This document shows, in pieces, positions 2-60,112 of a stretch of 60,112 nucleotides of DNA (its first letter is position 1; every line of letters begins with the position of its first letter). The notes under the pieces are model-generated. The model was not told the origin of the DNA, made no database searches, and saw nothing but the letters and a program-made list of their open reading frames with translations. The DNA is from a virus. The stretch covers positions 1 to 60,112 of the IMG/VR virus record IMGVR_UViG_3300022918_000112, one strand, 5' to 3'. Made by a program: the position numbers and the translations under genes.

Positions 2-292
2 AGAGAGTTGAGCCTGCTGCAAGATCAACTCAAGCAAACCAACGCTCGACAGGATCAGCTGCTGGAACAGGTCAACCGCATCGACAGCGAACGCACCCTC
101 CTCCAGGAACGCTTGCGCGCTGCCCTGCTGGAAAGCCAGTCACTGAAACAGAACGTCGACGAGCAGTCGCAAATAAACAAAGCGTTGGAAATTGAGTTGC
201 TCAAGACTCAGGCGAGCCTTGATGAGAGCGTGCGCCTGGCGGCCGTCATTGCGACAGCGCCAGACGCATCAGAGCCCAAAAAGGACGATTAA
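2..292 (+). CDS. C-terminal fragment of a coiled-coil protein (host)
   Basis: The frame is open to the left edge, so this is the 3' end of a longer gene. The visible part, about 95 residues, is rich in Gln, Glu, Leu and Arg with heptad-like spacing and reads as a coiled coil; it ends in a charged, disordered-looking tail (EPKKDD). No catalytic motif is visible and I do not recognise the family. The gene is convergent with gor and their stop codons overlap by a few bases. A TTG at position 8 could be an internal start, but continuation from upstream is more likely. Confidence 0.6.
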
Positions 293-1647
293 CCCGCGAC
301 CGGCGTGCGCATGGTGACGAACTCTTCGGCGGCAGTCGGGTGCACGCCGATGGTTTCATCGAAATCGCGCTTGGTGGCACCCGCTTTCAGGGCGATCGCC
401 AAGCCCTGCACAATTTCCCCCGCCTCCGGACCGACCATGTGACAACCCAGAACCTTGTCGGTCTTGGCGTCCACCACCAGCTTCATCAGGGTGCGCTCCT
501 GACATTCGGTCAGAGTCAGCTTCATTGGGCGGAAGCGGCTTTCGAAGATCACCACATCGTGACCGGCCTCCCGGGCCTCTTCCTCGGTGAAACCGACCGT
601 GCCGATGTTCGGCAAGCTGAATACCGCGGTCGGGATCATCTTGTAATCGACCGGGCGATACTGCTCAGGCTTGAACAAACGTCGCGCCACGGCCATGCCT
701 TCAGCGAGCGCTACCGGCGTCAATTGAACACGACCGATCACATCGCCAAGCGCCAGGATCGACGGTTCAGCCGTCTGATACTGCTCGTCGACCTCGACGA
801 AACCTTTCTTGTCGAGTTTGACTCCGGTGTTTTCCAGCCCAAGATTATCGAGCATCGGACGTCGACCGGTGGCGTAGAACACACAATCCGCTTCCAGCTC
901 ACGGCCATCCTTGAGAGTCACCTTCAGGCTGCCATCGGACTGCTTGTCGATACGTTCGATGTCAGCGTTGAATTGCAGGTCCATGCCGCGCTTCGTCAGC
1001 TCTTCCTGCAAGTGTTTGCGCACTGCACCGTCGAAGCCGCGCAGGAACAGCTCACCGCGATACAGCAACGTGGTGTCAGCGCCCAGACCGTGGAAGATCC
1101 CGGCGAATTCGACGGCGATGTAACCACCGCCTACCACCAGAACGCGCTTGGGCAGCTCTTTGAGGAAGAACGCCTGGTTGGAGCTAATCGCGTGTTCGTG
1201 ACCCGGAATCTCCGGGATCTGAGGCCATCCACCGGTAGCAATCAGGATGTTCTTGGCGGTGTGGTGCTCGCCATTGATCTCGACCGTGTTCGGGTCGACG
1301 ATTTTGGCGTGGCCTTCATGCAAAGTCACGCCGCTGTTAACCAGAAGGTTGCGATAGATACCGTTCAGTCGATTGATCTCGCGATCCTTGTTGGCGATCA
1401 GCGTCGCCCAATCGAACTTCGCTTCGCCCGGTGTCCAGCCAAAACCCGACGACTGCTCGAAGTCTTCGGCAAAATGCGCGCCGTAGACCAGCAGTTTCTT
1501 CGGCACACAGCCGACATTCACACAAGTGCCACCCAGGTAGCGGCTCTCGGCCACCGCCACTTTCGCGCCAAAACCGGCAGCAAAACGCGCAGCCCGCACA
1601 CCGCCGGAACCGGCGCCAATCACATAAAGGTCAAAATCGTAGGCCAT
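289..1647 (-). CDS. gor: glutathione-disulfide reductase
   Basis: Cytosolic flavoenzyme reducing oxidised glutathione with NADPH. The 452-residue length fits the family. Visible motifs in order: N-terminal FAD-binding [14 protein letters not shown], redox-active disulfide [13 protein letters not shown] near residue 40, NADPH-binding [11 protein letters not shown] near residue 175, the second FAD motif around LALGDV, and the C-terminal catalytic HPTAAEEF. The ATG at 1647 is preferred to the in-frame TTG at 1653 because GAGGAG lies about seven bases upstream of it. galU lies upstream on the same strand, separated by a hairpin terminator, so the two genes are probably separate transcripts. The call is firm. 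Confidence 0.97.
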
Positions 1648-1727
1648 TTTCAATCTCCTCGGCAGTCCACAAGCATACCCGCAGGCATCCGTTGGGCAAG
1701 CGCTGCAAACGATATGGGGACGGAAAA

Positions 1728-2617: not shown

Positions 2618-2794
2618 GTGAGGCCTTGATTGGGTGATGCATCCATATTTTCGGCGCAGTCTAATCAGGCAGAAGACTTCTTACAACGCCCGACGCTGAC
2701 TAACTGACTGCCTTCATAGAAAAATATTGCCACCGATAGTTGCGAGGCAGCTTGTCACTATTAACAGTTTCCCCTCGCAAGAAGCTGCATCGAA
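2618..2794. other. host-phage junction region upstream of galU
   Basis: No convincing gene. It should hold the galU promoter and the left boundary of the phage, but no exact breakpoint can be read because only one side is shown. The AT-rich stretch around 2715-2770 differs from the flanking host sequence. Clear phage leader similarity (to about 55.2 kb) begins near 2795. Confidence 0.4.
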
Positions 2795-2916
2795 GTGTGA
2801 TCTGCCCAAGTAGCCAATGATTTGGCAGATCACACCGCGATGCGGACGAAACCCCGGCTTATACCGGCCAATGCACTCATCAACTAACCCAGCGCGGAGG
2901 ATTGGCAGCCATGTAA
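2795..2916 (+). promoter_or_regulatory. early leader element A: long stem, conserved GATGCGGACGAAAC tract and start-stop ORF
   Basis: A perfect 12-bp inverted repeat (GTGTGATCTGCC at 2795-2806, GGCAGATCACAC at 2824-2835) is followed by GATGCGGACGAAAC and CGGCTTATA. Downstream, GGAGGATTGGCAGCC precedes ATG directly followed by TAA (2911-2916), a start-stop minimal ORF. The same order of parts occurs at 55192-55601 upstream of another early gene: a stem of unrelated sequence, then the same ATGCGGACGAAAC tract, then GGAGGATTTGCAGCC with ATG CAC CAG TAA. Function is unknown; leader-RNA control is an inference. Confidence 0.55.
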
Positions 2917-3024: not shown

Positions 3025-3080
3025 CGTCAGCACTCTCCCCTGCGCCCAACGGCAACCAGCAGGAGGCCCGAGTGCTGACG
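3025..3080 (+). promoter_or_regulatory. structured leader element, copy 1 (conserved GCCCAACGGCAACCA loop)
   Basis: A perfect 11-bp stem, CGTCAGCACTC (3025-3035) with GAGTGCTGACG (3070-3080), encloses 34 bases. Inside, CTGC (3040-3043) pairs with GCAG (3059-3062) around the 15-base loop GCCCAACGGCAACCA. Copy 2 at 55783-55830 keeps the 34-base spacing and the identical loop, while the inner stem becomes CCGC/GCGG, a compensatory change. It lies 30 bases before the ATG of the gene at 3110. An RNA element acting on antitermination or translation is inferred. Confidence 0.6.
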
Positions 3081-3109
3081 AATACACGCAACCCCATCGA
3101 GGAATCGCC

Positions 3110-7176: not shown

Positions 7177-8169
7177 TTACTTATTGCGTTGAACACCCGA
7201 TTTTATCAAAGCGTCGTAAATCACTAAAATATCTTCATTATTCCCGTATGCCGTTCTATCCAAAAGTATTAAGTCGCTTTTATCCAGTAGCATCATCCAA
7301 TCCAAATTGTTAAAAATCGCAAACTCATCAACATACTTAATAAATCTACTACCGCGTTCACTCAAGCAATTATAAAACAAAATCACGAGTTCAAAATCAG
7401 ATAAAAATGAACGCGCCACCGTCCCAAATCTTTTCTTTTCCCCATGATCGCACTCCGAGGCGAAACGAAACACAGCATATAGGCTTCGAAAATACAAACT
7501 TAAGTCACCCTGATACTTTGCCCACATTTCGGAATATGCGTAATTCATCTTTCCATCGAGACTAGGAACGTTGTTAATATAGTTTCTCCGCAGGAAGTTT
7601 ACCCAGGTTTTAAAGCAGTCCCTCCCGACCATAGTCACCACGCCTTCTCTTTTAAGGTCAAACCCCTGTACAACGCTGTGCTGAAGCGTCAGCATATTGT
7701 AAAACTGCGACTCAATTTGCTGGTGCATCACCTGCTGCCTTGCTTCAGAAAGATCTTTTCTCTGCAAAAGCAAAGTTATGAGAACGCCTGAAAATGCCAG
7801 CCCAGAGAAAAGAGCATTGAGAGTGCCAAAACTGTCTCCAAAGGTCCCTTCGCGTATTTTTTCAGGGATAGAAATAAATGGTTCATTCCACAACAAAATA
7901 ATTACGAAGGCGCCGTAAGCCAAGACAACTAACGACAGAACAACTATCACCTTGCTATAACTACTAAATTTAATTTCAATTTTTTTAGTAACCTTATAAA
8001 ACACAAATAACCCCAACAACCAAAGTACAAACGCAAAACAATACACCCAAATATTTAACGTTGAAAAAGACCAAAGCCCAAATTGGTACATCACTTCAGA
8101 AATATTAGATTCCACCATTGCAACATTTGAATACTTTAAAGCCTGAGCATCAATGTCAAACCAACTCAT
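7177..8169 (-). CDS. putative phage abortive infection protein (putAbiC-like), membrane-anchored
   Basis: 330 residues. Three hydrophobic segments lie in the first 125 residues; a cytoplasmic loop follows with GDSFGTLNALFSGLAFSGVL and then LLLQRKDLSEARQQVMHQQ and FYNMLTLQHSVVQG, which I recognise as the signature of the putative AbiC family (PF16872). Membrane-anchored, probably acting on infected cells; mechanism unknown. Very AT-rich and antisense to the early operon. Just behind its start lies the 17-codon stub of a DNA cytosine methyltransferase, so it may have replaced that gene. Confidence 0.75.
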   Translation of the reverse strand: MSWFDIDAQALKYSNVAMVESNISEVMYQFGLWSFSTLNIWVYCFAFVLWLLGLFVFYKVTKKIEIKFSSYSKVIVVLSLVVLAYGAFVIILLWNEPFISIPEKIREGTFGDSFGTLNALFSGLAFSGVLITLLLQRKDLSEARQQVMHQQIESQFYNMLTLQHSVVQGFDLKREGVVTMVGRDCFKTWVNFLRRNYINNVPSLDGKMNYAYSEMWAKYQGDLSLYFRSLYAVFRFASECDHGEKKRFGTVARSFLSDFELVILFYNCLSERGSRFIKYVDEFAIFNNLDWMMLLDKSDLILLDRTAYGNNEDILVIYDALIKSGVQRNK

Positions 8170-8962: not shown

Positions 8963-9556
8963 TCACGTTTTAGGCTGTTTTAAAAGCCATGGAAATGTCT
9001 GTTCTAGACTACTAAATAGTTTTGCCTTCGTTTTACGGAGCTCGCGATAATAATCAAGGCAGCGCTGAGGAGGTTTTTCGCTATCTAATTGCGAGTCAAC
9101 CCCATCAATCAAAGTAGTGCCGGGGCCCATTCGGAGTGCCTTTTGTGCATTATTTATGAGCTCCACGTTATCTTTAGCTCCCTGCATCGAACATGCCCCG
9201 ATGGCTTTTTTAACCAGCACCCTTTCAGAATCGTCTAGCTCGGCGGGGTCGTTATCAAGATCGATTAGCTTTTGTAAAAAAGCTACCTGAGCTTTAGTCT
9301 CCTCAGAATTTAAAGCATGACTAGTGGAAAATGCGTCGCTTACGGATAGAAATGTAAAAACAATAGAAACTAAAGGAGGCAAGTAAGAGCGAGGCTCTGT
9401 CCAGTCTTCCCAAAACACTACAGACGCGGCAGCAGCTAGACCGGCAACAATAAATCCAGCAAACGCCCAATAATGTTCGCCATGAAATGCAACTCCTGCC
9501 AACACCACACCTATTACTAGCGAAATGAAGCCTACTACCAAGCGCCAACTTTCCAT
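8963..9556 (-). CDS. accessory membrane protein, unknown function
   Basis: 197 residues with three hydrophobic segments in the first 75 (around 5-25, 30-50 and 60-78), then a cytoplasmic helical domain containing LVKKAIGACSM. Start ATG with GAAGG upstream. Minus strand, AT-richer, and sitting against a broken DUF4406 gene, so probably an acquired moron. Superinfection exclusion or another membrane-based conversion function is possible; no family recognised. Confidence 0.7.
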   Translation of the reverse strand: MESWRLVVGFISLVIGVVLAGVAFHGEHYWAFAGFIVAGLAAAASVVFWEDWTEPRSYLPPLVSIVFTFLSVSDAFSTSHALNSEETKAQVAFLQKLIDLDNDPAELDDSERVLVKKAIGACSMQGAKDNVELINNAQKALRMGPGTTLIDGVDSQLDSEKPPQRCLDYYRELRKTKAKLFSSLEQTFPWLLKQPKT

Positions 9557-10653: not shown

Positions 10654-10983
10654 ATGACCAAAGATCAGCTCCCATCGCTGGCAGCGGCTGTCGCACGCGC
10701 AATTGATGCCGGCAAGGCCGCCGCTGAGGCCGCGCCAGATGATGGCGGTAGCGCCAACCTCGACCGCGTTTACGTCTGCGTGGGCCTGCTCCGCGAAAGC
10801 ACCTTGGATAAGGCTGGCATTACAGGCTGGATGCAGGCGGCCACCACCTACCACTCCCGCGCGTTTCATCTCAGCGCCCCATTCGCTGGCCAAGGCAACC
10901 GGCGTTATGCCGGCGTGCAGGCCATGTACAAATCACTGAAGGCTGAAGGCGTCGAGTGTGGCGTCTGGTACCAGATGGATTAA
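10654..10983 (+). CDS. phage early protein, unknown function
   Basis: 109 residues starting MTKDQLPSLAAAVARAID. GCGAGGAATTCCT precedes the ATG at 10654. The C-terminal part (NRRYAGVQAMYKSLKAEGVE) is typical of small Pseudomonas phage proteins, but no function is known to me. Followed at 11031 by the DUF4224 gene. Confidence 0.7.
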   Translation: MTKDQLPSLAAAVARAIDAGKAAAEAAPDDGGSANLDRVYVCVGLLRESTLDKAGITGWMQAATTYHSRAFHLSAPFAGQGNRRYAGVQAMYKSLKAEGVECGVWYQMD

Positions 10984-11030
10984 CCACCCCTCCCCACCTT
11001 CTGCCGCCACGCGCGGCATGGAGCACCCCT

Positions 11031-11273
11031 ATGGAAAATGAAATTCTCTCGGACGAAGAGCTGGCAGACCTCACCGGCTACAAGGCCAGGGCCTACCAGC
11101 GACGCTGGCTGGTTGATCGCCAATGGGTTTTCGTCGAAAGCCGTGGCAAGCGGCCTCTAGTTGGCCGGATGTATGCCCGTATGAAACTGGGCATGATCTC
11201 CCCCGCCATCGCTGACCCCAACCCACCGCCGGCAGCTCCGGCATGGACGCCAGACTTCTCGCGAGTGAACTGA
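11031..11273 (+). CDS. DUF4224 protein, probable integrase-associated regulator
   Basis: 80 residues. LSDEELADLTGYKARAYQRR followed by WLVDRQWVFVESRGKRPLV is the DUF4224 pattern, regularly found directly upstream of tyrosine integrases in Pseudomonas phages. The fold looks like a small winged helix; an excisionase-like or directionality role is plausible from position. It ends one base before the integrase start. Confidence 0.8.
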   Translation: MENEILSDEELADLTGYKARAYQRRWLVDRQWVFVESRGKRPLVGRMYARMKLGMISPAIADPNPPPAAPAWTPDFSRVN

Positions 11274-11274
11274 T

Positions 11275-12324
11275 ATGCGACCCCGCAAGGCCGAAACACG
11301 TAATTTGCCGCCCCGGATGTACCAGTGGACGCGGCCACGGAAAAGTGGAAAGGACTGGATTGCCTATTACTACTTGGACATGACCGGCAAGGCGATCCCA
11401 TTGGGCAAAGACCTGGACCTCGCCAGGATCAAATGGGCAGAACTCGAAGCCAAGGAAAAACCTCTCGACCTGCGCACCATGAAGGGAATTTTTGACAGGT
11501 ACATCCGCGACATCGTGTCCAAGAAAGCGCCGCGCACCCAAAAGGACAATCTGTCGGAGATCAAGCAGCTGCGGCCGATGTTCGACAGCGCCCCCATTGA
11601 CTCGATCACCCCGGCCACGATTGCCGGGTACCGGGATGCACGGACGGCAAAGGTTCGGGCGAATCGTGAGATTGCCACCCTTTCCCACGTGTTCAACATT
11701 GCTCGGGAATGGGGGCTGACAACCAAAGAAAATCCCTGCCAAGGCGTTCGCAAAAACAAGGAAACGCCGCGGGACTATTACGCAAATGACGTGGTTTGGG
11801 ATGCTGTTTACAAGAAGGCAGCTCAAGAGCTGAAAGATGCGATGGACCTGGCCTATCTGACCGGGCAACGGCCGGCAGACGTGCTGATTATGCGGAAGGA
11901 TGATGCAGAAGGAGGATACCTGGGGGTGCTACAGAACAAGACGCACAAAAAGCTGCGGATTCAGATGACCGCCGGAGGCGAGGCAAACAGCCTAGGACGA
12001 TTGATCGCGGAAATAACGGCGCGCAATGCTCAGCACCTATCCAACTACCTGATTGTGAGTCGGCACGGTAAAAGGATGACCGCGACGATGCTGAGAAAGC
12101 GGTGGGACATTGCGCGCGAGAAAGCAAAGTTGGCCGCGATCGAGATCGGCGACGAGCTGCTGGCGACAAAAATCGGTGGATTCCAGTTCCGTGATATCAG
12201 GCCAAAAGCTGCTTCTGAAATCCTCGACATTGGGGAAGCGAGCTTGCTTCTGGGTCACACCAAAGGCGACATCACGGAACGCGTTTACCGCCGCATCGGC
12301 GCCATTGCCAAGCCGTCAAAATAG
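11275..12324 (+). CDS. int: tyrosine integrase, lambda type
   Basis: 349 residues. The N-terminal arm-binding domain (AETRNLPPRMYQW, then ARIKWAELEA) matches the lambda Int N domain; a SAM-like core-binding domain spans about 70-160; the catalytic domain has the first Arg in LTGQRPADVL, box II FRDIRPKAAS, LLLGHT and the nucleophile Tyr in ITERVYRRIG. In box II the usual HxxR is RxxR, so the first His is replaced. It reads directly into the attP region, the usual int-attP arrangement. Function: site-specific integration into a tRNA-Ser gene, inferred from attP. Confidence 0.93.
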   Translation: MRPRKAETRNLPPRMYQWTRPRKSGKDWIAYYYLDMTGKAIPLGKDLDLARIKWAELEAKEKPLDLRTMKGIFDRYIRDIVSKKAPRTQKDNLSEIKQLRPMFDSAPIDSITPATIAGYRDARTAKVRANREIATLSHVFNIAREWGLTTKENPCQGVRKNKETPRDYYANDVVWDAVYKKAAQELKDAMDLAYLTGQRPADVLIMRKDDAEGGYLGVLQNKTHKKLRIQMTAGGEANSLGRLIAEITARNAQHLSNYLIVSRHGKRMTATMLRKRWDIAREKAKLAAIEIGDELLATKIGGFQFRDIRPKAASEILDIGEASLLLGHTKGDITERVYRRIGAIAKPSK

Positions 12325-12446
12325 CCCGAAAACCCGTTACAAAACTCAAACTCCGCCCCTTGTAGAATGCGGTTTACAGAGGTGCCGAAAAACAAAAGTA
12401 CTGTAACGAAAAACAGCTACGGGCCACGGTTTCAGCGGCTTTAAAT

Positions 12447-12508
12447 AGCGGTCTTGAAAACCGTCGACTGTAACAGGTCCATGAGTTCGAATCCCATCGC
12501 CTCCGCCA
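12447..12508 (+). other. 3' fragment of tRNA-Ser(UGA), att core
   Basis: The anticodon arm CGGTCTTGAAAACCG (anticodon TGA) is followed by the long variable arm of a serine tRNA, GTTCGAATC of the T arm, the acceptor strand CGCCTCC and CCA at 12506-12508. The matching 5' acceptor strand (GGAGGCG) and the D arm are absent upstream, so this is not a functional tRNA but the stretch carried by the phage to rebuild the host gene on integration. Confidence 0.85.
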
Positions 12509-12515
12509 TCTTTAT

Positions 12516-12549
12516 ACGACAAAGCCCTGATTTTTCAGGGCTTTGTCGT
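12516..12549 (+). terminator. tRNA-Ser terminator carried in attP
   Basis: ACGACAAAGCCCTGA and TCAGGGCTTTGTCGT form a perfect 15-bp stem around TTTT, eight bases after the CCA end. It looks like the host tRNA terminator, extending the region of attB identity beyond the tRNA. Being symmetric, it would stop transcription from both sides, including int readthrough. Confidence 0.85.
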
Positions 12550-12712
12550 TTCTGGGGTTTGAGATTTCCGCCGGGATTTTTGAGGCGTTACAAAACTATT
12601 TGGTAACCGTTACAAAACTTTCCGGTTTTTCCCATCCTGCGGCGCCCTGCCGATCCTTAAATATCCTTCATGTAACGCGATGCTACGCTGTCCTCAAAAC
12701 CGAGGATTTGCG

Positions 12713-12922
12713 ATGCCACATTCAGACCTGCTCCCTTCCCTGCTATTCAAAATCAACGAAAACCAGCTCGCCCTTGAGGCCGCCATCCTGGAGCTTTCCA
12801 ACTGGGTCGAGGCCCGCGGCTCGGATGACGTCGCAGACAACGTGCGCGGCGCATTGGACACCATCGACAAGAACGAGGAGTTCATCAAGATGACGCTTGC
12901 GGTGATGATGACGCCGGAGTGA
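12713..12922 (+). CDS. small helical protein next to attP
   Basis: 69 residues, MPHSDLLPSLLFKINENQLA at the start, GAGGATTTGCG before the ATG. Helical and acidic, no cysteines. A gene of this type is a familiar neighbour of att sites in Pseudomonas prophages. Function unknown. It lies on the opposite side of the attP core from int. Confidence 0.7.
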   Translation: MPHSDLLPSLLFKINENQLALEAAILELSNWVEARGSDDVADNVRGALDTIDKNEEFIKMTLAVMMTPE

Positions 12923-12975: not shown

Positions 12976-13974
12976 TTAAATCGATGCGCGATCAATAATC
13001 TCACCATCAACGTTCTTGCGTATCAACTCGCCAGATGCGAACTCAGCAAGAAACGCTTCGTAAGGCGCATTGGGTATAGGGGCGTGGAATGGCATTTGGC
13101 CGCTTCGGGCATTAGCTGTCAATTCTCGAAGTGTTTCCGCGTGCCAGCACTTACCTAACGCTACTTCGCCCAGCCGCGTACTGCCGATTGTGCCCGAGTA
13201 CACTCCCAAGAATTTGAAACTTTTCACGGTTTCATGGGTAAGTGCTTGAGTATCAAGTCCCATCAGCGCATCCAGCGCACCAATGGTTCCGCCGAGCATT
13301 TGCTCGAACACCTCATTGTTCGCCTTATTTCCTGCACCAACCCGCTTGTCGTCTTGCGCGATCAGCACTGGCGCACCAGACATCCCGGCTCGGGACAACG
13401 AGTCAATAAGCAACACTCGTCCACCAAGCCGCAAGGCCGGTTCTGTTGCGATACTGCCTCTCTTCCAAACAGGTAGGTAGTAGGGTGCATCGTTGCCAAA
13501 GGTCCCAGTCATGTCCTCCCGGCTGAAGGGGTAGCCGAGAATGAACACATCCTTAGCCACCGTTTCATTGATATGCGTATCATTTTCAACTGAATGAATA
13601 TCTACAAACTCAAAGTGGTTTTCGAGAGTCATCGGCAAGGGATAAATCACGATGTCAACGTCCCCGCCTGCAGGATGTTCTTCCCACAACGGTTCCATCG
13701 CGGCGTTGTAAAGTGGAAGGGTTAGCTCAATCAGACTTTTACTTTTGCTTAACACCGTGACTTTGAGTAGGTGCGGTGGCGGATTTGATCCCATGACAGA
13801 CGGAGTAGCAGGGTCAAGGCCCGTGACAACGTGCCAGTTCGTCACCAACAACAATGACTGGCTAGCACGAATAAAGAAGCCCGTCGCATAAGAGCGTTGT
13901 ATGTGCTGACCTGTCTCAGGGTGAATAAAGTAGGTTTGTATGTAAGTAGTGGCGCGCGACAGCTGATGGATCAC
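12976..13974 (-). CDS. trypsin-like serine protease domain protein (lysogenic conversion candidate)
   Basis: 332 residues from a GTG at 13974 preceded by GGAG; an ATG at 14106 would add 44 residues without a ribosome site and crowd the Rz gene end. A complete trypsin-like triad is visible: His in TNWHVVTG, Asp in GGDVDIVIYPL, Ser in AGMSGAPV (family pattern GxSGxP). No signal peptide, so probably cytoplasmic. Its place at the attP end of the late region is typical of lysogenic-conversion genes; host defence or proteolysis of a partner is possible. Confidence 0.8.
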   Translation of the reverse strand: MIHQLSRATTYIQTYFIHPETGQHIQRSYATGFFIRASQSLLLVTNWHVVTGLDPATPSVMGSNPPPHLLKVTVLSKSKSLIELTLPLYNAAMEPLWEEHPAGGDVDIVIYPLPMTLENHFEFVDIHSVENDTHINETVAKDVFILGYPFSREDMTGTFGNDAPYYLPVWKRGSIATEPALRLGGRVLLIDSLSRAGMSGAPVLIAQDDKRVGAGNKANNEVFEQMLGGTIGALDALMGLDTQALTHETVKSFKFLGVYSGTIGSTRLGEVALGKCWHAETLRELTANARSGQMPFHAPIPNAPYEAFLAEFASGELIRKNVDGEIIDRASI

Positions 13975-14072
13975 AATACACTCCAGATACAAAATATCGG
14001 CCGGTGCATAGATGATAGCGGTACTGCTGCAACAATCCTCGTCATTTCGTATCGACCTTGCCGCAGCTAAAT

Positions 14073-14552
14073 CTATCGATTCAGCTCCCTCACATAAGCT
14101 TGGCACGCCGCCAACGCGATCAGCCCTTGATCGCCTGCAACGGTGATTCCGATAATTCGTTGAGCATGCGCTGGGTCAAGTCGAGCGCGCGTTCCTCCAT
14201 GAACCACGCTGCTGGCGCCGGCACCGACTGGCACTGAACAGCCACTGGCTGGATCCGCAGCGTCGATGAGGACTGACAGCCGCAAATCAGAAGTGCCAAG
14301 GCGATCGCGCAGGAGAGCCTGGTCTTTTTGTGCATTGGTCATTTTCTCGAAGTGGGTTTTCTCGCTGGCCACGAGCCGTTGCTCGAGTGCGAGGCGCTTG
14401 TCCTGCTCGGCCTGCTGAGCGGTGGCGGCGGAAATGGTCAGTTGATTCAGGATGTCGGCGCAGCGTCAGTCCTGGAACTGCCAGGCGCTGCCGGCGCCAA
14501 GCATGATCATCGCCAGCTCGCCGACCGCCTTCCACGGAATTGCTACAGGCAT
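14073..14552 (-). pseudogene. i-spanin Rz with an in-frame stop codon
   Basis: The start MPVAIPWKAVGELAMI and the membrane helix are intact, but codon 29 (14466-14468) is TGA directly after WQFQD, where related Rz proteins as I recall have Trp (DWR). The frame then continues open with a normal Rz coiled coil (NQLTISAATAQQAEQDKRLA) and the characteristic end ALAACQAYVRELNR. A short stretch after the stop also seems deleted. The inner-membrane subunit of this spanin pair is therefore probably not made. A second, intact spanin pair exists at 42144. Confidence 0.8.
14120..14335 (-). CDS. o-spanin Rz1, outer-membrane lipoprotein
   Basis: 71 residues embedded out of frame in Rz. A basic start (MHKKTRLSC), a hydrophobic stretch and the lipobox LLICGC mark a lipoprotein; the mature part is short with a Pro-containing segment. 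It would fuse inner and outer membranes with Rz at the end of lysis, but its partner frame here is interrupted. Intact as read. Confidence 0.8.
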   Translation of the reverse strand: MHKKTRLSCAIALALLICGCQSSSTLRIQPVAVQCQSVPAPAAWFMEERALDLTQRMLNELSESPLQAIKG

Positions 14553-15032: not shown

Positions 15033-15455
15033 TCACGGAACATCCCTGAAGAAGACGTGACCACCAAGCCTGAGCGTTCGCGTGGCATTAACAGACCAGC
15101 CCGGCGCCTTGATGCTGGTCGCGTAGTAATGCGTAGCGCCGCCGGTGGGGTCTGGTACCTTTCCGTCGATCATCTGGTCAGCGGCAATACGCGCCTGCGC
15201 CAGCTCGCGGAACGGGATCTGTTTCACACCGATCAGGAACTGATAGTTCGGGTCGTTCTTGTTCCAGCAGCTAAACTGGTACGGCTTTTGGCAGACGCCG
15301 GCATAGCCTTCGCCCCACCACGATCTGGCCTTGCCGTCGTTCATACGGTTGCGGATCGTCCAGGCTACGGCGATCTGGCCGGCCAACGATTCGCCGCGGG
15401 CTTCACCCCACAGTGTGCGCGCGAGGATGTCGCGGTCTTGTTCAGTGACGGTCAT
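15033..15455 (-). CDS. endolysin, SleB-type cell wall hydrolase
   Basis: 140 residues, the usual size of Pseudomonas phage lysins of the Hydrolase_2 family. The opening DILARTLWGEARGES carries the catalytic Glu, followed by IAVAWTIRNRM, QFSCWN and GATHYYATS. Cleaves peptidoglycan after holin triggering; no signal peptide. It is separated from the holins by the whole head-tail cluster, an unusual split. A terminator-like hairpin lies just before its ribosome site. Confidence 0.88.
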   Translation of the reverse strand: MTVTEQDRDILARTLWGEARGESLAGQIAVAWTIRNRMNDGKARSWWGEGYAGVCQKPYQFSCWNKNDPNYQFLIGVKQIPFRELAQARIAADQMIDGKVPDPTGGATHYYATSIKAPGWSVNATRTLRLGGHVFFRDVP

Positions 15456-42143: not shown

Positions 42144-42641
42144 CTACTTGATGTTCTGGGCGGCCGTATATGCCGCCTCACACGCAAAGCCAGCTATTCG
42201 ACTTCGGTCAAGCGCCTCTGCCAGGCTTCCCGCTCTTTCGTCAGCGCTTCTACGCAGGTCGGCGAGCAGAACGGTAAGGTCGGCTCTTGCCTTGCCTCCG
42301 CTGGCAACCTCGGCAGTACAGGACTTTCGCCCGGCAATGAGGTCGGTGATTTGCTGCTGCAAGCTGCGAGCCCGGCTATCAGCAATAGCAACGGTAGCCG
42401 TAACATGTTCAGTCTTGGCTTTCGCATCGTCGGAGACTCGGTTGATGTCATCAGTGATTTGGCGTTGCAGGCGCAGTGTGTTGCCGAGTGAAGTCACCCG
42501 AGCATTGGCCATGTCGAGCTCGGCCACCACGAGTGCGCGCTCAGCCTTCACGCCATCCAGCCGCCACGAGAGGTAGCTGATGGATGCCAGCGCAGCCAGG
42601 GCGAACCACAACCACATCGGAACCATCCGAAGAAGAGTCAC
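42144..42641 (-). CDS. i-spanin, Rz-like (DUF2514 type)
   Basis: 165 residues. N-terminal membrane helix (MWLWFALAALASISYLSWRL), long coiled coil with Ala/Arg/Asp repeats, C-terminal GFACEAAYTAAQNIK, the pattern of DUF2514 / Rz-like proteins. Inner-membrane half of the spanin that fuses membranes at lysis. The o-spanin gene is embedded in it. Follows two holin-like genes, its start overlapping the first by four bases. Confidence 0.85.
   Translation of the reverse strand: MTLLRMVPMWLWFALAALASISYLSWRLDGVKAERALVVAELDMANARVTSLGNTLRLQRQITDDINRVSDDAKAKTEHVTATVAIADSRARSLQQQITDLIAGRKSCTAEVASGGKARADLTVLLADLRRSADERAGSLAEALDRSRIAGFACEAAYTAAQNIK
42194..42427 (-). CDS. o-spanin Rz1-like lipoprotein
   Basis: 77 residues embedded out of frame in the i-spanin gene. 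MRKPRLNMLRLPLLLLIAGL with lipobox LAAC, followed by a Pro-rich mature part (PVLPRLPAEARQEPTLPFC), which is the Rz1 style. A start at MLRLPLLLL is also possible. With the i-spanin it makes an apparently intact pair, in contrast to the broken one at 14073. Confidence 0.82.
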   Translation of the reverse strand: MRKPRLNMLRLPLLLLIAGLAACSSKSPTSLPGESPVLPRLPAEARQEPTLPFCSPTCVEALTKEREAWQRRLTEVE

Positions 42642-42982
42642 GGGGTCTTTCTCTCTGATGCCTTGCCGACATTGTCGCAGGTCATGCAGTGCTCACAGTT
42701 CAGCGTTCGGCAGAGCCATGCTTTCACCGGCTGCCAGTACGTGACCATGAAGATGTGGCGGGCGCCGGCAAAAGCCAGAGACACATGCAACGTCAGCCCT
42801 GCTGTGGTCGGGCCGAAGAAGATGTTCTGACTCCGAACCATCACCACAAAACCGCTGATGGCGATCGTCGAGTAGATCAGCTTGCCGAGGATGCCGTCCC
42901 TCACCTTCCCGCTCAGTACACACCAGGTTGCCCACAACGAAATCAGGCCTACCGCGATGGAGTTGATCAGTTCGTAATTCAT
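42638..42982 (-). CDS. holin-like membrane protein 1
   Basis: 114 residues with three hydrophobic segments (about 5-24, 35-50, 60-80) and a C-terminal Cys-containing tail (CRTLNCEHCMTCDNVGKASE) with a CxxC pair. Size, topology and place before the spanins fit a holin or antiholin. Overlaps both neighbours by four bases. Confidence 0.75.
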   Translation of the reverse strand: MNYELINSIAVGLISLWATWCVLSGKVRDGILGKLIYSTIAISGFVVMVRSQNIFFGPTTAGLTLHVSLAFAGARHIFMVTYWQPVKAWLCRTLNCEHCMTCDNVGKASERKTP

Positions 42983-43421: not shown

Positions 43422-43643
43422 CTTGAAATTGGTGTGAGGGTCTTTCCCCTCCTGTCTGCCGAAGACCTTCTCTGCGTCGACGCCCTATTGCATCGATCTC
43501 GCAGATTCAGTCTCGCGCCACCCCGGAGCATGTACGGCCAGGGTTCGCGGGCTGCCGGTGTTTTCTCGTGTCACTGCACTTGCCGGCGTATCAGTGTCCA
43601 GGCCTTCCCGAAGGCTGCCCTGGCTACAGATGAAATTGAGGCA

Positions 43644-49052: not shown

Positions 49053-49113
49053 ATAAGCCTGCTTATATCCTAAGTAGAAGGACACTTATTTGCAAGCCGA
49101 TAAGGGAACTTAT
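49053..49113. promoter_or_regulatory. OR: three 14-bp operators
   Basis: O1 ATAAGCCTGCTTAT (49053-49066) is a perfect palindrome; O2 AGAAGGACACTTAT (49076-49089) and O3 ATAAGGGAACTTAT (49100-49113) are imperfect copies. Starts are 23 and 24 bases apart, close to two helical turns, as needed for cooperative repressor dimers. The same motif occurs twice at PL. Confidence 0.8.
49067..49095 (-). promoter_or_regulatory. PR promoter (cro direction)
   Basis: Read on the minus strand: TTGCAA (49095-49090), 17-base spacer, TAGGAT (49072-49067). O2 lies within the spacer and O1 overlaps the predicted start, so CI at O1/O2 would block it. Confidence 0.7.
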
Positions 49114-49118
49114 AAATT
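49090..49118 (+). promoter_or_regulatory. PRM promoter (cI direction)
   Basis: TTGCAA (49090-49095), 17-base spacer, TAAATT (49113-49118). The -35 is the same palindromic hexamer used by PR. O3 fills the spacer. The predicted start falls at the cI ATG, implying a leaderless or nearly leaderless cI mRNA, as in lambda. Confidence 0.6.
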
Positions 49119-49125
49119 CCAGCGG

Positions 49126-49782
49126 ATGAGCACACTCGCCGAAAGAATCAAATCCGCACGAATTCACGCCAAGCTGACGCAGAAGGCTCTCGCTCTTAAG
49201 GCGGGGGTTGAGCAGCCGGTGATCTCGCAGTTGGAAACTGGAAAGAACCTACAAAGCGCGCACCTGCCGAAAATTGCGCATGCGTGCGGCGTGAGCGCCA
49301 TTTGGCTATCCGAGAATATTGGTCAGATGATCAATTCAGCGGCGGCCGAGTCGAACGTGGGCGAATCCCGTCAGCCCGTTGAGTCCTACCGCTACCCGGT
49401 AATCAGCTGGGTAGCCGCCGGCGCCTGGGCTGAGGCCGTGGAGCCCTACCCGGCCGGCTTCTCGGATCGCTATGAGTTTTCCGAGTACGACTCAAAAGGT
49501 GCCGCGTTTTGGCTTGAGGTCAAAGGCGACTCGATGACTTCACCGGTTGGGCAAAGCATTACCGAAGGGACTCTAATTCTGGTAGACACGGAAGCAGAGG
49601 CTGCTCCCGGGAAGCTAGTTATCGCCAAGCTGCCGGATAGCAACGAAGCGACCTTCAAGAAGCTGGTAAATGACGGCGGCAAGCTATTCCTGAAGCCGTT
49701 AAACCCGTCATGGCGAATTGAGCCTTTCACCGAAGACTGCCGAATCGTAGGGGTTGTGGTTCGGGCGCTTCAGAAGTTTTAA
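49126..49782 (+). CDS. CI-like repressor, LexA/S24 type
   Basis: 218 residues from ATG 49126. N-terminal helix-turn-helix: KLTQKALALKAGVEQPVISQ; cleavage site Ala-Gly in WVAAGAW near residue 99; catalytic Ser in EVKGDSMTSP and Lys in VIAKLPDSNEATFKKL. Maintains lysogeny and is expected to self-cleave with RecA after DNA damage. No strong ribosome site precedes the ATG, in line with the leaderless reading. Confidence 0.93.
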   Translation: MSTLAERIKSARIHAKLTQKALALKAGVEQPVISQLETGKNLQSAHLPKIAHACGVSAIWLSENIGQMINSAAAESNVGESRQPVESYRYPVISWVAAGAWAEAVEPYPAGFSDRYEFSEYDSKGAAFWLEVKGDSMTSPVGQSITEGTLILVDTEAEAAPGKLVIAKLPDSNEATFKKLVNDGGKLFLKPLNPSWRIEPFTEDCRIVGVVVRALQKF

Positions 49783-51642: not shown

Positions 51643-52113
51643 ATGGTGCCTATTCCCATACTAGACAATCGAGGCTTGCTCCCTGTCGGGGTTCACGCTT
51701 GTAAATTCAGTGATATCGAACAAGCTTTTCTCAATAGCCAGTACAGGGTGGAGCTTTACGAAAACGTAAAGTCATTCATAGACGGCCCACTGAGAAACGT
51801 GGCGGACGGGCTGCAGTTGTTTCTCGGAGGAAGCTTTTTTTCAGATAAGCTTCACCCCGCAGATATCGAAGCCACCGTATATCTACCCTGCTATCCGGTT
51901 GACCGATTTCAGAATGTCATGGGGCTGTTCGCGCAACATGACTACTATAAACAACAGAATCTTGTAGACTTTTACCCCTCCATCCAGATGCCTGGACAGA
52001 ATGATTTTGTTCAATTTTTCCAGTACGTCGGCCCTACCACTGCATCAGTAAAAGGCCTGGATGAGAAAGCAGGACGCGGAGTTTTGGAGGTGATCGAATG
52101 GGAACTTGGGTAG
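51643..52113 (+). CDS. nucleotidyltransferase-like protein (DUF6932 type), cassette gene 1
   Basis: 156 residues from ATG 51643; AAGGAGG ends only one base before it, so the GTG at 51646 (VPIPILDNRGLLPVGVHACK) is equally possible. LFLGGSFFSDKLHPADIEAT fits the hGGS-x9-D-h-E core of minimal nucleotidyltransferases, although a third acidic residue is not obvious. LLPVGVH is the usual N-terminal phrase of DUF6932 proteins. Overlaps the next gene by 16 bases. Lower GC than the phage genes around. Confidence 0.7.
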   Translation: MVPIPILDNRGLLPVGVHACKFSDIEQAFLNSQYRVELYENVKSFIDGPLRNVADGLQLFLGGSFFSDKLHPADIEATVYLPCYPVDRFQNVMGLFAQHDYYKQQNLVDFYPSIQMPGQNDFVQFFQYVGPTTASVKGLDEKAGRGVLEVIEWELG

Positions 52114-53063
52114 AACAAGTGAATGGTCGCGCGAGTGTTTTACTCGATCAGATGGTTGCCTGGCGCACGGCTCAAGCCGAAACAAAGGTTGATATTTCTC
52201 ATGCCATTGACGGCCTAATGAAGAAAATTGAAAACCTCTATGCCAATGAGCTTCCTCTTGCTCGGATCATCGATGTTTCTGACCTCGTCTTGCATGCTGA
52301 AGGCCCTTCAGCTGCCACATCTACGCCAGGCCTTCATGCGTTTAACTGGCTATGCGGTTCAGCAGAAAAGCAGATTCGAACGCTAGCAAGATCGATCTTC
52401 GATCTGTCAGACCTCGACTCGAAACGATTCTCTAAAAAGCTCGACTTGCGTTTCTCAGGGTTTGCGCCTGGGAGTATTTATGCTGGCTTCTCAATATCCG
52501 AGATAGCTCCTATTCTCGGTAGTGACGAACCAGAAATCGTATACGAAACCTTGAGGTCGGCAGTGCGGATGCTTCCGACAATTCCTGAGTTCATTGGCAA
52601 TGAGACTTTAAGTTTCGGCATTTCTGAATTGATGCCAGATCCAGCGATGCGTGACGCTAGCCTGGAGGCAGTTTTTAGGCTCTCTCCAACCGGGCGTGCA
52701 GGAATCCATACAATCGACATTTCTTCACCAGATGCAGGAGAAAGCGCGCTTACCTCGAAGGAACGCATCGTGCTAAAAGAGGCTTTGCTAAAGCCTATCT
52801 CTCGGAAGAAAAGCTTCGGTAGATTTGTCGGAGAGGTCCGAGTGATTGATATGGACTCTGGCAGGTTTCAGCTTCGAAACATTTCGGACGTAGGCTCCTT
52901 GAGGTGCGTAATGCCAGAGGCGCCAGGCGAGTTATGGAAGAAAATTCTCGGCAGTCAGGTTTGCGTTGAAGGTGAGTACGAAATGGATCAAAGCGGGAGG
53001 CCGAGATTGATGTTTGCTAGTCACATTTCCCCTTCCGAAAAACCACTACAGCACGAGTTTTAA
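52098..53063 (+). CDS. unknown protein, cassette gene 2 (partner of the nucleotidyltransferase-like gene)
   Basis: 321 residues; GGAGGTGATCG before the ATG, inside the end of the preceding gene. N-terminal helical part (1-75), a middle domain with LDLRFSGFAPGSIYAGFSIS, and a beta-rich C-terminal part (about 245-310: GRFVGEVRVIDMDSGRFQLR, VCVEGEYEMD) resembling a small barrel. No R-x4-H motif. Tight overlap implies a joint function: toxin-antitoxin or defence pair is the best guess. Ended by a terminator at 53173. No family recognised. Confidence 0.75.
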   Translation: MGTWVEQVNGRASVLLDQMVAWRTAQAETKVDISHAIDGLMKKIENLYANELPLARIIDVSDLVLHAEGPSAATSTPGLHAFNWLCGSAEKQIRTLARSIFDLSDLDSKRFSKKLDLRFSGFAPGSIYAGFSISEIAPILGSDEPEIVYETLRSAVRMLPTIPEFIGNETLSFGISELMPDPAMRDASLEAVFRLSPTGRAGIHTIDISSPDAGESALTSKERIVLKEALLKPISRKKSFGRFVGEVRVIDMDSGRFQLRNISDVGSLRCVMPEAPGELWKKILGSQVCVEGEYEMDQSGRPRLMFASHISPSEKPLQHEF

Positions 53064-55133: not shown

Positions 55134-55873
55134 ACAACCAGCGCCACGACAGCCTGTCGTTAACTGCCCGATCCTCTCCACGAGAGCGCATCGGTAGTCG
55201 CTGTCTGGAAGAACCACGGGCCTCCGCTTGCGGGCATGGCAAGGGCGGCAGCGACTACCGATGCGGACGAAACTGCGGCCTATAACCGCCCACCTGCATC
55301 AAATCCCAGAATCGGTTGTTATCGAGCGCTGGCGAACTGAACACGGCCGTGGAACTCGGCGCCGTAGACGTGACCGGCAAGCAGATGAATGCGCAGTGCT
55401 GATGCGCATAGGGCTCGGGCCTTGTTGGGATACCTCACGGGATTACAGGGGTGAGGATCGAAGCCGGTCATGCGGAACAGTGACATGACGAACTCAGTAC
55501 TTCATGCCGGGATCAGCTCCGGCCATCTGCACCACCAACTGCCAGAGCGCACCGCCGCAGTTGAAACCCTGCACGGAGGATTTGCAGCCATGCACCAGTA
55601 AGCAATCGCTGCTGAGCAGCAGTGTTCCCAGCCACTAAAGAGCCGGGCGCTTGGGCCGACGAGAGAATATCGGTTCCGGAGAGCGCGCTTTGTCAGCGCC
55701 CCGCAGCGGGTATATCCCACAGGATCTGCTGATGACATCAGCGCCGGACAAGTAACCGGCCACCCTCCCGACACCACCCGCATGCACTCCCCTCCGCGCC
55801 CAACGGCAACCAGCGGAACGGATGAGTGCAGCCGAGTTTTGTTGGATCAACACCCGCCACTCTGGAGGCGACC
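55134..55873 (+). promoter_or_regulatory. 740-base leader B without a clear gene
   Basis: Contains a 14-bp stem (CGGTAGTCGCTGTC at 55192-55205 with GGCAGCGACTACCG at 55247-55260, one G-U), then ATGCGGACGAAAC and CGGCCTATA, then at 55575-55601 GGAGGATTTGCAGCC with a three-codon ORF (ATG CAC CAG TAA, 55590-55601), and the structured element at 55783. The same parts in the same order make up leader A (2795-3080). An ORF at 55228 has no family features and is not accepted. Confidence 0.55.
55783..55830 (+). promoter_or_regulatory. structured leader element, copy 2
   Basis: Outer stem TGCACTC/GAGTGCA, 34 bases enclosed; inner stem CCGC (55794-55797) with GCGG (55813-55816); loop GCCCAACGGCAACCA identical to copy 1. 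Ends 43 bases before the ATG at 55874. Confidence 0.6.
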
Positions 55874-57826: not shown

Positions 57827-57879
57827 CCACCCTTTCCATCTAAAGGCCGAACCACTCCTTGTCGGCCACGGAGAGCGCA

Positions 57880-58869
57880 ATGACTGATTCAGACACCCAA
57901 GCACCAACCGGCCTCGCCACGTACCACGATCCATCCCACAACGCGGCGGCGCTCATTCTCGACCCAGGCACCATGAAGTCGATGAGCGACCTTGCTCTGA
58001 TGATGTCGAAGGGCGCGACAACAGTCCCCAAGCATCTGAAGGGCAATCAAGCCGACTGCATGGCGGTAGTGCTACAAGCAATGCAGTGGCAGATGAACCC
58101 TTTCGCTGTCGCGCAGAAGACGTTCATCGTCAACGGCGGTGCATTGAGCTATGAGGCGCAGCTCGTCAACGCAGTGATCACCGCCAAGGCACCGGTCAAG
58201 GGTCGCTTGAACTTCGAGTGGTTCGGCAGCTGGGAAAACGTCATCGGGAAGATGCGTGAAGTTACCAGCAAAACCAAGAAGGACGAGGACACTGGCGAGT
58301 TCAAAAAGTACCGTGTTCCCGGCTGGAGCTTTGACGATGAGAAGGGTCTCGGGATTAAAGTTTGGGCAACCTTCAAAGGCGAAGACGAGCCACGCGTTCT
58401 GGAGCTACTGCTCACCCAGGTCCGCACGCGGAACTCTACGCTTTGGGCGGAAGACCCCAAGCAGCAGATTGCATACCTGGTGACCAAAAAATGGGCTCGA
58501 CTCTTCTGCCCTGACGTCATCCTCGGCGTCTATACACCCGATGAGTTCGAAGACTCGTACGGCGGCGAAATCGATATCACCCCTGCGAAGCAGGCTTCAA
58601 ACACCGCTGCCGCTGCTGGTGTGTCGTTCGGCCCGAAATCCCCATCGCCGGAAATCGACGGAGTATTCGCAGACCTTCTGGTCGTCGCGAAGCGGCAGGA
58701 CATCGAAGCCTATGCGACAGCCTGGGCAGGTCTCAAGCCTAAGCAGCGCGCAGCGATCGGCCTGGAATGCCACGAAGCACTCAAGAACATGGCTGCAACC
58801 GTTGATGGCGACTTTACCGAAATGACCGGCAATAACGACGGCCTGTCTCAGGCCGAGGAAGCGGCGTAG
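57880..58869 (+). CDS. RecT-family single-strand annealing protein
   Basis: 329 residues from ATG 57880 (GGAGAGCGCA upstream; a TTG at 57859 is less likely). DCMAVVLQAMQWQMNPFAVA, QKTFIVNGGALSYEAQLVNA and KQQIAYLVTKKWARLFCPDV are the conserved RecT parts. Anneals complementary strands after exonuclease resection. Followed by the exonuclease with a one-base overlap. Confidence 0.92.
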   Translation: MTDSDTQAPTGLATYHDPSHNAAALILDPGTMKSMSDLALMMSKGATTVPKHLKGNQADCMAVVLQAMQWQMNPFAVAQKTFIVNGGALSYEAQLVNAVITAKAPVKGRLNFEWFGSWENVIGKMREVTSKTKKDEDTGEFKKYRVPGWSFDDEKGLGIKVWATFKGEDEPRVLELLLTQVRTRNSTLWAEDPKQQIAYLVTKKWARLFCPDVILGVYTPDEFEDSYGGEIDITPAKQASNTAAAAGVSFGPKSPSPEIDGVFADLLVVAKRQDIEAYATAWAGLKPKQRAAIGLECHEALKNMAATVDGDFTEMTGNNDGLSQAEEAA

Positions 58870-59531
58870 TGAGAACGGAACTTCAGGGCACTGAAAAGTG
58901 GCATGCAGACCGATCTGGCCGTGTGACAGCCAGCCGGTTTAAAGACGTGATGGCCTGGGGCAAGCCTGACAAAAATGGGAAGCGCGAGCCTATGGGTGCG
59001 CGCACCTCATACATGCGCGAACTGTGCTTCGAGCGACTGGCAAAGAAGTCCAAGCACAACGTCAGCAGTGCTTCCATGAAGTGGGGTCACACCGAAGAAC
59101 AGAAGGCTCAGGACGCCTACGAGATGCTGACCGGCAACATCGTCATACCGTCAGAGTTCATCGTCCACCCGAAGTACGACTGGCTCGGCTGCTCGCCAGA
59201 CGGCCTGATCAACGATGACGGGGGCACCGAGTCGAAGTGCCCCTTCAATGAGGCGATTCACGTCAGGACATGGCTCGAAGGCATGCCCGAGGAACACATG
59301 CCGCAGGTCCAGGGCTGCTTGTTCGTAACGGGGCGGAAATGGTGGGACTTTCTGTCGTTCGATTCTCGCCAGGATGAGGAGTGTCAGCTCTACATCGAGA
59401 CGATTCACCGCGACGAAGACTACATCGCCAACCTGCACAAAGAGCTGGTCCAGTTCAACCTGGAACTGAATCGCATGGTTGATGAGGTCGCGGACAAAGC
59501 TCGCGCGCAAGCCTATCGGTTAGGCGCGTGA
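58869..59531 (+). CDS. YqaJ-family (lambda Exo-like) exonuclease
   Basis: 220 residues, GTG start. SGRVTASRFKDVMAWGKPD, MKWGHTEEQKAQDAYEMLTG, then the active site WLGCSPDGLINDDGGTESKC (Asp, Glu-x-Lys) and QVQGCLFVTGRKWWDFLSFD. Works with RecT in double-strand break recombination and in replication of phage DNA. Last complete phage gene before the galU junction. Confidence 0.93.
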   Translation: MRTELQGTEKWHADRSGRVTASRFKDVMAWGKPDKNGKREPMGARTSYMRELCFERLAKKSKHNVSSASMKWGHTEEQKAQDAYEMLTGNIVIPSEFIVHPKYDWLGCSPDGLINDDGGTESKCPFNEAIHVRTWLEGMPEEHMPQVQGCLFVTGRKWWDFLSFDSRQDEECQLYIETIHRDEDYIANLHKELVQFNLELNRMVDEVADKARAQAYRLGA

Positions 59532-59623
59532 TAGTGAACAGGTTCGATATCCTCAAGCCAACGCTGGTCTCCGCCAAGGGTACCGACAGGCAATCGAAGC
59601 GCTCCTACGCTGAACGCACATAA
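59528..59623 (+). pseudogene. truncated phage gene at the right junction
   Basis: GTG start overlapping the exonuclease stop; MIVNRFDILKPTLVSAKGTD and RQSKRSYAERT then TAA made by the galU terminator sequence. It reads like the start of a normal phage gene cut off by the junction. Its 3' part is not found in the window. Confidence 0.6.
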
Positions 59624-59624
59624 A

Positions 59625-59650
59625 AAAAGCCACCTGCGTAGGTGGCTTTT
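59625..59650 (-). terminator. galU terminator (copy 2)
   Basis: AAAAGCCACC-tgcgta-GGTGGCTTTT, the same stem as in copy 1 with a different loop. Marks the phage boundary: phage sequence ends at or within a few bases of it. Confidence 0.85.
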
Positions 59651-59673
59651 CAATACAAGAAGCTCAGGTTCTA

Positions 59674-60112
59674 TCAGTAGGCCTTGCCAGTCTTGTAGAA
59701 GTGTTCGAAGCAGAAGTTGGTGGCCTCGATGTAGCCTTCAGCGCCACCGCAGTCAAAACGCTGGCCCTTGAACTTGTAGGCAATCACGCAACCGTTTTTC
59801 GCCTGCTTCATCAGGGCGTCGGTGATTTGAATCTCACCGCCTTTGCCTGGCTCGGTTTGTTTGATCAGCTCGAAAATATCCGGCGTCAGGATGTAACGGC
59901 CGATGATCGCCAGGTTCGACGGGGCATCTTCCGGGGCTGGTTTTTCGACCATGTTGCGAACGCGGTACAAATCATCAGCGATCAACTCGCCGGCGATCAC
60001 GCCGTACTTGTTGGTTTCCATCGGATCCACTTCCTGGATCGCAACGATGGTGCAGCGATACTGCTCGTACAGCTTGACCATCTGGGTCAGGACGCCGTCG
60101 CCTTCGAGGTTG
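59674..60112 (-). CDS. galU: UTP--glucose-1-phosphate uridylyltransferase, 3' part of second copy
   Basis: The C-terminal 145 or so residues of GalU, running off the window edge. Apart from FCFEHFYK (Asn in copy 1) the protein is identical to copy 1; about ten base differences, nearly all silent, show the two are distinct alleles or paralogues and not an exact duplicate. It has its own terminator and the phage directly downstream where gor would be expected. Confidence 0.95.
   Translation of the reverse strand, partial: NLEGDGVLTQMVKLYEQYRCTIVAIQEVDPMETNKYGVIAGELIADDLYRVRNMVEKPAPEDAPSNLAIIGRYILTPDIFELIKQTEPGKGGEIQITDALMKQAKNGCVIAYKFKGQRFDCGGAEGYIEATNFCFEHFYKTGKAY

Follow-up and report, generated by a model that had tools for sequence, protein, structure and literature searches.

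Lambda-like siphophages of Pseudomonas such as PseuP_222, PS-1 and phiPSA1 follow a lambda-type order of repressor, CII, replication genes, Q, lysis, terminase, head and tail genes, attachment site and integrase. The same order is found in IMG/VR record IMGVR_UViG_3300022918_000112, a viral sequence of 60,112 nt that we analysed over its full length (positions 1 to 60,112, hereafter the window). The DNA of these three phages matches the window at ~75-83% identity, in patches, and the window phage differs from them by a mosaic early region and a galU cassette. Prophages of P. frederiksbergensis AS1, P. lini, Pseudomonas sp. GM18 and MF4836 resemble it in length, have an identical attachment core and shared arm motifs, and encode integrases of one family with that of the window (90-96% protein identity). 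These four prophages differ in being integrated in tRNA-Ser(UGA), where they are bounded by attL and attR, and no galU was seen beside their early genes in the stretches fetched. A different kind of precedent comes from sequence assembly: circular phage contigs produced by SPAdes have ends that overlap by 127 bp, the value of k (PMC7372960), and a published metaSPAdes run used -k 33,55,77,99,127, with 127 as the largest k (PMC7311315).

The window contains a single integrase, excisionase, repressor, CII, O-like protein, DnaC-like protein, terminase, portal, capsid and tape measure (PHROG searches). This complete, single set of integration, immunity, replication, packaging, head and tail genes fits a lambda-like temperate siphophage. 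The late and replication genes form one block on the minus strand (14076-47588; spanin, endolysin, tail, head, terminase, holin, Q-like, NinG, NinB, DnaC-like and O-like genes). On the plus strand, the early operon starts with the repressor (49090-49782; PHROG 4, E 2e-54) and reaches a RecT-like annealing protein (57859-58869; PHROG 561, E 6e-102) and an exonuclease (58869-59531; PHROG 149, E 7e-43), next to which lies the galU cassette. In ~60 of 83 relatives, the exonuclease gene is followed by the equivalent of the window's 3.68-4.06-kb region within ~0.5-1 kb, or of its 4.97-5.97-kb gene within ~1-2 kb, or by both; the usual distance to the former is ~0.7 kb. This adjacency indicates that 59.6/2.7 kb is not a natural boundary, and that the early operon is continuous across both record ends, from the repressor to the integrase. 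An initial annotation, made from the sequence alone, had regarded the operon halves at 59.6 kb and 2.8 kb as complementary and had read the record as one phage opened away from its attachment site rather than as two prophages; both views are borne out by the relatives and by the single gene set.

The attachment site lies directly downstream of an excisionase gene (10956-11273, plus strand; PHROG 4764, E 7e-32) and the tyrosine integrase gene int that it precedes (11275-12324, plus strand; PHROG 1, E 8.9e-35). Its core, a 61-bp tRNA-Ser(UGA) 3' fragment (12449-12509, plus strand) delimited by alignment with attL and attR of four genomes, is identical to the 3' part of the tRNA, from the anticodon stem to CCA, in 4 Pseudomonas genomes, and carries with it the tRNA terminator hairpin (12517-12548). 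ARAGORN detected no complete tRNA in the window, and directly upstream of 12449 alignment placed the int arm instead of the 5' half of a tRNA. In the integrated relatives, attL consists of an intact tRNA-Ser(UGA) followed by the sequence found to the right of the window core, while attR consists of int and the 3' fragment, followed by host DNA. In alignments with four Pseudomonas genomes, the left arm of the window matches the attR side and the right arm the attL side, the latter including a phage ORF (phrog_12397; 12680-12922, plus strand) that adjoins attL in relatives. Since both phage arms are joined in one core, the window site is, as judged from these alignments, the attP of a tRNA-targeting tyrosine integrase, and recombination with the tRNA gene is predicted. 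The attP itself is ordinary.

The 11-mer GTTACAAAACT occurs exactly, on the plus strand, once on the int arm (12336-12346) and twice on the right arm (12587-12597 and 12609-12619), with no further site in the window even at one mismatch; 0.44 matches with up to one mismatch are expected by chance, and three were reached in none of 100 shuffles. Among 72 cores from relatives, 45 have it conserved at the equivalent position of the int arm, and the attL sites of relatives carry it twice on the other arm. The conserved copies on the phage arms may therefore be arm sites of Int or excisionase, with that at 12336 the putative site of the int arm. The initial annotation had described an intact attP, with int reading into a tRNA-Ser 3' fragment and its terminator, the 11-mer on both sides of the fragment and phage genes on either side of the site. 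All of this agrees with our comparison, including the PHROG-annotated phage genes both left and right of the core.

What remains to be explained is why an intact attP lies inside a record that begins in host DNA, and here the galU repeat at both record ends is the key. A galU segment is repeated in the same orientation at 1741-2216 and 59637-60112, and the terminal 127 nt (59986-60112) are identical to 2090-2216. This run is exactly 127 nt long, since positions 59985 and 2089 differ, and a terminal overlap of exactly this length is the mark of a lasso in a k=127 graph. As in the circular SPAdes contigs whose ends overlap by k (PMC7372960), a 127-nt end is repeated; the present record differs in that one copy is internal, owing to an attached host tail. 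We consider it probable that the record is a lasso assembly, in which a circular phage loop and 2.2 kb of host gor-galU sequence were joined at a shared k-mer. The tail of the lasso (1-2089) holds gor (289-1653, minus strand; NCBIfam) and the 3' part of a chromosomal galU1; positions 1-2741 match the gor-galU locus of P. frederiksbergensis AS1 at 94% identity, with 98-99% identity in the galU part at 1736-2216. The loop closes at 2090-2216 and, based on this 127-nt closure and on the early-operon adjacency in relatives, comprises a 57,896-bp circle that contains the phage genome with galU (2217-60112). At 57.9 kb, it amounts to one genome length relative to the integrated relatives, in which attL and attR are spaced 44-59 kb apart. 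The phage genome is complete and probably circular.

The attachment core provides a further constraint on the state of the sequenced DNA. The attL and attR of relatives have 61-70 identical bp in common, and as this run is shorter than 127, a path through the core in a k=127 graph requires that molecules with attP were sequenced. With k=127, the sample hence contained phage DNA in excised, replicating, packaged or tandem form. We infer that the phage DNA was episomal or in virions, and that the host tail derives from a separate molecule. We propose that the loop would represent one complete lambda-like temperate Pseudomonas phage in non-integrated form, sequenced as an excised circle, a replicating concatemer or virion DNA, which would leave attP intact. 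Between the phage galU and galU1 on the chromosome of a host similar to P. frederiksbergensis, at least 127 bp in a row would be identical, and through this stretch the assembler would have attached 2.2 kb of host gor-galU1 sequence to the loop. In its usual life cycle, the phage integrase would act on attP and the tRNA-Ser(UGA) gene, as in the relatives. The apparent odd insertion around an ordinary attP is thus most likely an assembly effect. The initial annotation had offered two possibilities, that the phage was not inserted by Int or that the assembly was misjoined; the second is favoured, as the contig ends 127 nt into its own galU repeat. Its statement that neither side of the break is duplicated holds at the level of genes, with only short repeats within the record (2838-2869 / 55259-55290 and 3030-3081 / 55784-55835); it had missed the galU direct repeat at the ends. 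A puzzling insertion without Int becomes a known assembly effect, and a simple test is available for other records, namely whether the contig end repeats an internal stretch over exactly k bases.

Other readings of the record were weighed against the lasso. A Campbell-type insertion without Int, in which the phage circle recombined via its own galU with the chromosomal galU1, perhaps helped by RecT and the exonuclease, would leave the order gor-galU-phage-galU, with direct galU copies and an unused attP. The record does have two galU copies in direct orientation flanking the phage, one (copy A) with a galU1-type gor flank at its 3' side and a galU2-like flank at its 5' side and the other (copy B) with a galU2-like terminator, and the recT and exonuclease genes adjoin galU. 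A lasso assembly yields an equal pattern, just as the contig and graph would be identical if the phage had really inserted by recombination at galU. Yet the contig ends at the first k-mer of the repeat, without the galU1 upstream region, although the repeat is crossed on the left, and the differences between the galU alleles of tail and loop are scattered up to 59985 without a clean crossover; these two points weigh against the insertion but are not decisive. In addition, none of the ten Pseudomonas genomes examined has such an insertion at galU. We therefore regard it as unlikely that a temperate phage that had captured galU lysogenised its host by homologous recombination via this gene, leaving integrase and attP unused. 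If true, galU-mediated lysogeny would be a natural counterpart of a specialised transducing phage. A point against the lasso reading is that both phage-galU junctions were seen in this one record only; the same junctions were found nowhere else in the viral contigs or phage records searched, nor was a gor-galU-phage region found in the plasmids searched.

It should be noted that an attP-like junction by itself is no proof of free phage, since tandem prophages occur at the tRNA-Ser(UGA) site. In Pseudomonas sp. 6D_7.1_Bac1, tandem prophages (contig C23, 228066-284845) have their attL at 228066 and an attP-like middle junction, with int, core and arm, at 283794. The premise of the initial annotation, that an integrated prophage has no internal attP, is accordingly not strictly right. 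Phage copies arranged in this way in tRNA-Ser could account for the window site as the junction between two prophages and for the loop as the repeated unit; the record, in which attL, tRNA-Ser and a second phage allele are all absent, makes this quite improbable. Least credible of all are two different truncated prophages lying side by side. The short repeats at 2.84-3.08 kb and 55.26-55.84 kb might suggest such an arrangement, but the window holds one gene set without gaps, the 2838 / 55259 repeat belongs to a hairpin element common in the phage family, and relatives keep the adjacency across the break. A second integrase or a second set of head and tail genes, which had been named as pointing to two prophages, was not found in PHROG searches of the window. 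Three further candidates were discarded. Transposition or target-site duplication was rejected because the repeat is a whole gene and its copies are not identical. No second integrase that might have inserted the phage beside galU was found, and galU copy A, with its foreign 5' flank, is complete. Also rejected was a clean reciprocal crossover in galU, because the loop and tail differ at scattered positions, with no single switch point.

With the lasso as the preferred reading, what is left is the complete genome of a phage that carries a housekeeping gene for an envelope sugar as its cargo. Read across the closure, the 3' part of the phage galU (59674-60112, minus strand) resumes at 2217-2617 (5' part, minus strand), and together they give an intact GalU ORF of 279 aa. 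The cassette of ~1.1 kb is antisense to the early operon and lies just after recT and the exonuclease gene; its terminator (~59623-59652) and upstream region (to ~2785) are of chromosomal type and resemble those of galU2, a second chromosomal galU of related pseudomonads that stands beside an exopolysaccharide cluster. Much of the body of the loop galU is closest to galU1 of the AS1 lineage. Phage morons are cargo genes with their own promoter and terminator, and galU is likewise antisense to its operon, with its own terminator and a chromosomal-type upstream region; expression from its own promoter is only putative. It is a host-type gene with its own terminator between phage genes, and the cassette is missing at the equivalent place in the relatives examined. 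A galU antisense among early genes, at a comparable position, is also present in a second Pseudomonas phage contig (L241). The phage galU was most likely captured from a host chromosome. Some phages are unable to adsorb to galU mutants (discussed in PMC12373910), and a phage-borne galU could matter for receptor upkeep or for the surface of the lysogen: the phage GalU would make UDP-glucose and could maintain or change the lysogen's LPS. The phage-borne gene is modestly interesting and is the part of the case worth keeping. As a separate observation on the chromosomal locus, five of ten Pseudomonas genomes have 1.8-9 kb of additional DNA between gor and galU1, which makes this a variable spot.

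At the 5' edge of the galU cassette lies a hairpin element (2786-2880, plus strand) that recurs between genes in the early operons of this phage's family, with a second window copy at 55207-55300 and ~37 distinct copies in the phage loci fetched. It consists of a long hairpin followed by a near-constant GGACGAAACTGCGGCCTATAACCGCCCACCTGCAT with a second hairpin. The long stem varies with compensating changes, such that 16 distinct stems were counted among the 18 copies with a clear stem, and the element has no credible Rfam match. It could be an RNA regulator, for example an antitermination site, or a recombination boundary element. The element is also present upstream of the chromosomal galU2 in P. 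lini CC269 (contig C13 of genome G009, near 9309-9428), hinting that this locus and phage exchanged DNA in the past. We speculate that recombination at the hairpin element is one possible route of galU capture.

The phage has two separated sets of lysis genes, one with a spanin and an endolysin near the tail genes (14076-14372 and 15036-15455) and the other with a holin and another spanin near the terminase (42147-42982). A Proteo-phage-1 RNA (RF03044, 80 bits; 43550-43629, minus strand) lies between the Q-like gene and the lysis genes. Three accessory genes without an NCBIfam match (7180-8169, 12979-14106 and 52098-53063) comprise a membrane protein, a protein near att that gives the impression of being trypsin-like from its sequence, and an unknown early gene, and are candidates for functions in the lysogen.
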